Virus record (IMG/VR): IMGVR_UViG_3300044591_000969
Span: 1-25,088 of that record
Source: a virus
Direction: 5' to 3' (one strand)
Length of the DNA: 25,088 nucleotides
The translations under genes were made by a program, and so were the position numbers. Position 1 is the stretch's first letter. The number at the start of each line of letters is the position of its first letter. The notes beneath the pieces were generated by a model that was not told the DNA's origin, did no database searches, and was given only the letters and a program-made list of their open reading frames with translations. This document shows positions 5,475-5,790 of the stretch, piece after piece.

Positions 5475-5538
5475 TGTGGATAACTTGTGGATAACTAGAG
5501 GCGGGTGATCGTGCTGTTGATCGTGCGATCGATCGTGC
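5475..5538. other. Candidate replication origin: DnaA boxes and iterons
   Basis: TGTGGATAA, the complement of the DnaA consensus TTATCCACA, occurs at 5475-5483 and 5486-5494, 11 bp apart. Directly after, GATCGTGC occurs at 5507-5514, 5519-5526 and 5531-5538 with a 12-bp period, each copy holding a GATC (Dam) site. An AT-rich tract follows within 200 bases. This is the layout of a DnaA-type origin; origin function is inferred. Confidence 0.55.
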
Positions 5539-5615
5539 GGTTGTTGCTTGGATGCAACAGATCCAGGTTGTGTTGCGCCGAAGCCACAGGTTTAGGGCTG
5601 TCGGGGAGGGGTCAG

Positions 5616-5641
5616 GGAATTAGTGCATATGTATTAATTCC
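5616..5641. repeat. Inverted repeat whose left arm recurs downstream
   Basis: GGAATTA (5616-5622) and TAATTCC (5635-5641) are perfect 7-bp arms around a 12-base centre that contains CATATG. The 14-base GGAATTAGTGCATA (5616-5629) is repeated exactly at 5832-5845, where it runs into another small palindrome, GCATA-AGCC-TATGC (5841-5854). The pairing around the AT tract suggests protein-binding sites. Confidence 0.6.
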
Positions 5642-5750
5642 GGTCGCTTGCGCTAAAACTCGAGTGAAATCAATCGGTTAGGAATTAATCCATTTAATTT
5701 ATATTTTGCTTACAGATACAGACACAGACAGACAGAGACACTCATAGTAG

Positions 5751-5790
5751 TATATATATATATATATATATATATTATATATAATAATAT
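5751..5790. repeat. (TA)n AT-rich tract
   Basis: About twelve TA dinucleotides (5751-5774) run into TTATATATAATAATAT; the window is otherwise GC-rich. It is preceded by a CAGACA-type microsatellite (about 5714-5740). Such a tract would melt easily and is a candidate unwinding element next to the DnaA boxes. A TATAAT at 5780-5785 lacks a matching -35 box. Confidence 0.7.

Follow-up and report, generated by a model that had tools for sequence, protein, structure and literature searches.

The DNA analysed here, referred to as the window, is a linear freshwater phage record of 25,088 bases. Genes for TerS, TerL, the portal protein and the capsid run rightward from about 5.9 kb, and small genes run mostly leftward; a GIY-YIG type homing endonuclease gene (16329-16922) directly follows the capsid gene. 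The leftward operon is separated from the packaging genes by a region at about 5381-5934, from which the flanking genes diverge and which we call region A. Its left edge is the ATG of a minus-strand gene (5024-5380) that is the first gene of the leftward operon and has no family match, and its right edge is the start of the small terminase subunit gene terS on the plus strand (5935-6492; phrog_309, E 2.6e-7). We found no family-supported open reading frame within region A: most of a minus-strand call at 5820-6215 overlaps terS in antisense, and the TTG listed as a start at 5443 falls on the -35 element of a putative leftward promoter. A search of the window against Rfam gave no match.

Apart from two DnaA boxes and three GATC repeats, region A contains an inverted repeat and two tracts, one purine-rich and one of TA. 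The boxes read TGTGGATAA on the plus strand (5475-5483 and 5486-5494) and thus form the minus-strand double box TTATCCACA-AG-TTATCCACA at 5475-5494. The preliminary description rightly reported two perfect DnaA boxes and placed them 11 bp apart; 11 bp is the repeat period, and the true gap is 2 bp. Three 12-bp repeats with GATCGTGC follow on the plus strand (5506-5541, copies at 5507, 5519 and 5531), as had also been described, and the inverted repeat TGTTGC-TTGGAT-GCAACA (5542-5559, plus strand) adjoins the boxes; relatives have comparable TTGTT..AACAA inverted repeats in their region A or in region B (see below). An element of the type ATCA..CTTACG is present twice on the plus strand, as AATCAATCGGTTA at 5668-5680, which also matches the IHF consensus, and as ATCAGACACTTACG at 5805-5818. 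The family form of the second copy, ATCAAYGACTTACG, is conserved across 14 aligned lineages, whether or not these have boxes. The purine-rich CAGA tract (5712-5741, plus strand) has counterparts in aligned lineages. The TA/AT tract (about 5751-5791, plus strand), a possible unwinding element, lies in the same non-coding divergent region as the boxes, upstream of terS, as the preliminary description stated.

The slot between terS and terL is occupied in the window by a minus-strand gene of the GP88 family (6778-7566; phrog_1617, with PF17338 matched in the homologue of relative G016). A fold model of GP88 has a pLDDT of 79 and no PDB match below E 0.03, the best being a weak one to a radical-SAM protein. 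Upstream of the slot gene is a second intergenic region, region B (7567-8069), which contains no DnaA box in the window and two to five in relatives with DUF932 or ArdC in the slot. Region B of the window also has repeated palindromic GGGTCCC/CCTAGG stretches (7917-8045) and a stretch rich in CGCGCACACA (about 7700-7860).

Two boxes are in themselves unexceptional, as at least two matches to the TTATNCACA pattern occurred in 10 of 100 shuffles of the window. The case that the boxes are not chance comes from comparison across TerL relatives. We fetched 80 TerL-relative loci and made counts in the 40 loci (window included) with enough upstream sequence; region A was taken as the 650 bp upstream of terS, and region B as the sequence upstream of terL and the slot gene. 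Regions A and B, 12% of the DNA examined, hold 53 of the 57 boxes (27 and 26, respectively, with 4 in the 505 kb elsewhere), an enrichment whose P value is no more than indicative, given the relatedness of the loci and a definition of region B that was set once the boxes were known. The reversed pattern, used as a control, occurred 0 times in region A, twice in region B and 4 times elsewhere. A second count over whole records, which overlap (39 records), gave 57 clustered boxes versus at most 9 matches to the reversed pattern. With one locus per lineage, 27 region-A sequences contained 18 boxes versus 0.8 expected; the maximum in 300 shuffles was 4, and a double box never arose. The comparison supports the view that the DnaA boxes are real and selected. 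That they are a product of composition, 9-mers arising in AT-rich intergenic DNA, agrees with the window shuffles, but it is at odds with the region-A counts, the absence of double boxes from shuffles and the reversed control; at the family level this explanation is already refuted, and we consider its probability negligible.

The GATC repeats fared differently. The window contains 7 copies of GATCGTGC versus 1.55 expected, and none of the shuffles reached 7. Three copies of the repeat are present in relatives L004 and L006 and two in L007; the repeats are absent from the other relatives shown. Across the family, GATC is not in excess in region A (4.9/kb versus 5.3/kb elsewhere). Conservation of the iterons, named in the preliminary description as a check, is thus confined to three members of the nearest clade, and the suggested Dam/SeqA control was rejected, the GATC excess being limited to that clade. 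A lack of box conservation, which the preliminary description would have taken as a refutation, is not seen in the nearest clade, where the boxes are kept, but is seen in about half of the wider family.

Wherever two boxes of this family are directly adjacent, they lie on the same strand with 2 or 3 bp between them (2 bp in the window and L030, 3 bp in L004, both 2 and 3 bp in L026); the next box spacings, 11-12 bp, are one box length more. Escherichia coli DnaA prefers box pairs spaced 2 or 3 bp (PMC11317965). Region A also carries a conserved minus-strand promoter-like sequence, TTGACW-17-CATAAT, with the palindrome CAAGCGGCTTG in its spacer. L018, L034 and L036 carry it almost without deviation (in L018 and L034 the family form is TTGACT/TTGATT..CATAAT). 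It is weaker in the window, where a putative sigma70-type promoter at 5415-5443 on the minus strand (TTGACA, 17 bp, CAATCT; palindrome at 5423-5433) agrees with the family form at 23 of 28 positions and has a poor -10 hexamer. A generic promoter scan of the window found no promoter.

Counted from the 5' base of the -35 element, the boxes of the window start at 32 and 43 bp, which leaves 31 and 42 bases between box and -35, as in L006. The corresponding distances are 40 and 52 in L004, 42 and 53 in L030, and 41 in L007, L033 and L016; the value for L016 was read from the printed sequence, as the automatic promoter scan chose another site there. Helical phase is thus kept across a 10-bp length change within the window clade, and its constancy rests on about three lineages (the window clade, L030 and L033/L016) that partly share descent. 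Single boxes in L009, L042, L044, L056 and L074 show no such phase, and the boxes of region B, upstream of a minus-strand gene, are farther from any promoter, the promoter there being less clear. If transcription starts at the usual distance, the box centres would lie near -71, -81 or -92, and phased boxes of this kind are the pattern that an upstream activator would be expected to leave. The palindrome CAAGCSGCTTG and its variants recur in the spacers of promoter-like sequences before leftward genes (window, G016, G018, G009 and G037), and may be the operator of a phage regulator.

Box content varies within the family. At 19 of the 40 loci with region A, neither A nor B contains a box, and on a tree of 35 distinct TerL sequences the box state changes at least 11 times; relative G009 has no DnaA box at all in 57.8 kb. 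Boxes are gained and lost independently of the region A core (purine tract, AT tract and ATCAAYGACTTACG-type elements), which is conserved in the 14 aligned lineages with or without them. The slot between terS and terL is filled by a single, exchangeable minus-strand gene, which encodes GP88, a second GP88 type, DUF932 or the anti-restriction factor ArdC. Double boxes at A co-occur with GP88-type slot genes, and boxes at B, 2-3 kb away from region A, accompany DUF932 (6 of 8 loci) or ArdC (1 of 7) and never GP88. Since box presence is variable and box location depends on the cassette, the boxes do not count as a fixed part of region A. Another motif, TTAATGCAT, has 19 copies in region A and none elsewhere in the 40 loci, with up to five in L030 (2570-2760), and is a possible binding site of a phage protein.

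The closest isolates by TerL are the Caulobacter phages RW, RLK, KcrB and GB2A (50.5% identity); unlike the window, phage RW has no TTATNCACA box in 62 kb. A search of genome contigs with the MCP was tried for host assignment. Its matches were most often in proteobacterial bins, and it is not decisive because they were scattered over many phyla of metagenome bins.

Several features of region A are origin-like. The region contains the AT-richest 200 bp of five out of five long relatives (G016, G018, G009, G037 and G038), and repeats flank its AT/purine tract. IHF-like matches number 29 in region A versus 14 in 505 kb elsewhere. The cumulative GC skew, which the preliminary description had put forward as a check, was computed for relatives and has its minimum within about 3 kb of region A in G016, G018, G009 and G038, a result that is confounded by the divergent gene strand; skew alone was therefore rejected as proof of an origin. 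In G016 (-0.15 versus 0.07), G009 and G018, but not in G037, coding-strand GC3 skew is lower for genes opposed to the left arm than for co-oriented genes, so that part of the skew may follow replication. The AT-richest stretch and the nearby skew minimum make an origin in region A plausible, and we consider its conserved AT-rich core probably to be one. G037 and G016 encode PrimPol, helicase, RusA and recombination genes, and neither the large ORFs examined in G016 nor the replication genes in G037 included a DNA polymerase gene; with only these genes at hand, the phage probably uses host replication proteins. No Rep initiator was found among the 20 window ORFs searched, the record being a fragment.

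Tandem DnaA-box pairs are not restricted to this family: viral contigs contain at least 119 stretches with such a pair. Among the matches listed, 19 records have both a pair and TerL, and in 13 of these the pair lies at most 2.4 kb upstream of TerL versus 2.6 records expected from record lengths; the 19 are not independent, since a single family with a short TerL contributes several of them. Among viral records with a tandem pair (G040-G089), 13 of 50 carry GP88 (PF17338) versus 1 of 50 controls (Fisher P 8e-4), the controls being chance-match contigs unmatched by host. About half of the GP88 records with a pair have boxes 0.2-1.5 kb upstream of GP88. A search of the viral collection with AATCAATGACTTACG gave matches near the chance number, mostly unrelated, which served only as control contigs. 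In a second phage family, sigma54-promoter-like sequences (TGGCAY-N5-TTGCW) lie in or next to the box-bearing divergent region, with five within 175 bp in L194 (10285-10459) and others in L373 (10024 and 10263), L366 (5788) and L371 (3725). L191 has six same-strand DnaA boxes at 1058-1368, upstream of genes 1616-2290 and 2290-3912, which by position look like a terminase pair.

Box clusters are also present in phages that carry replisome genes. Record L197/G088 (ten plus four boxes) encodes a primase-helicase and a family A polymerase. The early regions of two Autographiviridae, Berlinvirus P483 and Klebsiella phage FBKp16, contain five and six clustered boxes, respectively, and the T5-like phage BF23 has boxes between its divergent pre-early promoters (5377-5458). 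T5-like and T7-like phages encode their own replisomes, and T5 is unrelated to the window phage. The pre-early divergence of T5 (Tequintavirus) resembles region A in having TTATCCACA-3 bp-TTATCCACA and AT-rich repeats between divergent early promoters, but differs in that its boxes are in the terminal repeat.

Known origins offer partial parallels. At P1 oriR, the initiator iterons have tandem DnaA boxes and repeats with GATC nearby, which resembles the window, but the window phage has no adjacent Rep gene that we could find and its family has no family-wide GATC repeats. At lambda ori, repeats lie beside an AT/purine tract and DnaA acts near the origin by stimulating transcription from pR; unlike lambda, the window phage has its boxes upstream of a promoter, and no O-type initiator was found. 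There is also a likeness to double-box regulatory sites of E. coli, in which two boxes of the same orientation, 2-3 bp apart, lie upstream of a promoter (Stringer et al. 2024, PMC11317965; nrdAB and others, PMC8203912). The window pair differs in being in a phage, beside a candidate origin, and in being a putative regulatory site.

We tentatively favour a reading in which the double box recruits host DnaA and is coupled to an early leftward promoter, with a probable origin next to it. Region A would be a control hub of the phage, and the double box an accessory docking site for a host protein on the leftward promoter. Host DnaA would bind the box pair as a dimer, near -71, -81 or -92 and on one face of the helix, and would help RNA polymerase to start leftward, presumably early, transcription; through this transcription it may also assist in unwinding the AT tract nearby. 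A review describes DnaA as both activating and repressing transcription and cites DnaA-stimulated transcription at lambda ori (PMC8203912). We would expect activation rather than repression here.

The main rival is a DnaA-dependent origin, at which host DnaA, bound to the boxes, would unwind the TA tract and load a host or phage helicase. The AT-richest stretch of the genome, the nearby skew minimum, the divergence, the skew of opposed genes, the concentration of IHF-like matches and the probable reliance on host replication proteins all accord with it, and an origin role alone would likewise be expected to place boxes next to an AT tract where genes diverge. However, an origin of this kind fits poorly with the loci that lack boxes, G009 among them, with a distance of about 260 bp between boxes and TA tract in the window (2-3 kb when the boxes are in region B), and with the same clusters in phages that have their own replisomes. 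We regard it as possible but rather unlikely, and the recruitment site as the more economical account. The origin proposed in the preliminary description thus survives in part: the boxes are real and selected and region A is origin-like, but boxes and GATC iterons find no support as its defining parts.

Alternatively, the boxes could be a sink, many phage copies titrating DnaA off the host oriC so that no new host rounds begin and nucleotides are spared. A decoy would be expected to vary in box number (1 to 10 here) and position and to be useful also to phages with their own replisomes; yet the window has only two boxes, and a decoy needs neither confinement to a promoter region nor helical phase, which makes a sink quite improbable. 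We are slightly more doubtful still of a function at the genome end, in which the boxes would be part of an element beside terS that serves packaging or DNA entry. The adjoining terminase genes, here and in the 13 other TerL records, are in its favour, as is the T5 injection stop signal, which has been described as containing DnaA boxes (PMC13250531), but closed or long assemblies run through region A and many relatives lack boxes. Clustering at contig ends was discarded as evidence for a terminus, the contigs being too variable in length.

More speculatively, unrelated tailed phages may have repeatedly gained double boxes, with DnaA acting as a sensor of host state that sets early transcription and with the sites travelling together with GP88/DUF932/ArdC cassettes. 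DnaA activity would report the replication state of the host to sites at a divergence beside terminase and early or anti-restriction genes. We think this general scheme unlikely as it stands. DnaA boxes had earlier been noted in single phages such as T5, and can now be compared across dozens of relatives, where they are selected, labile, paired as in E. coli and phased to a promoter, and recur in unrelated phages that encode replisomes themselves. The question of whether phages monitor the replication initiator of their host or commandeer it has thereby become testable.
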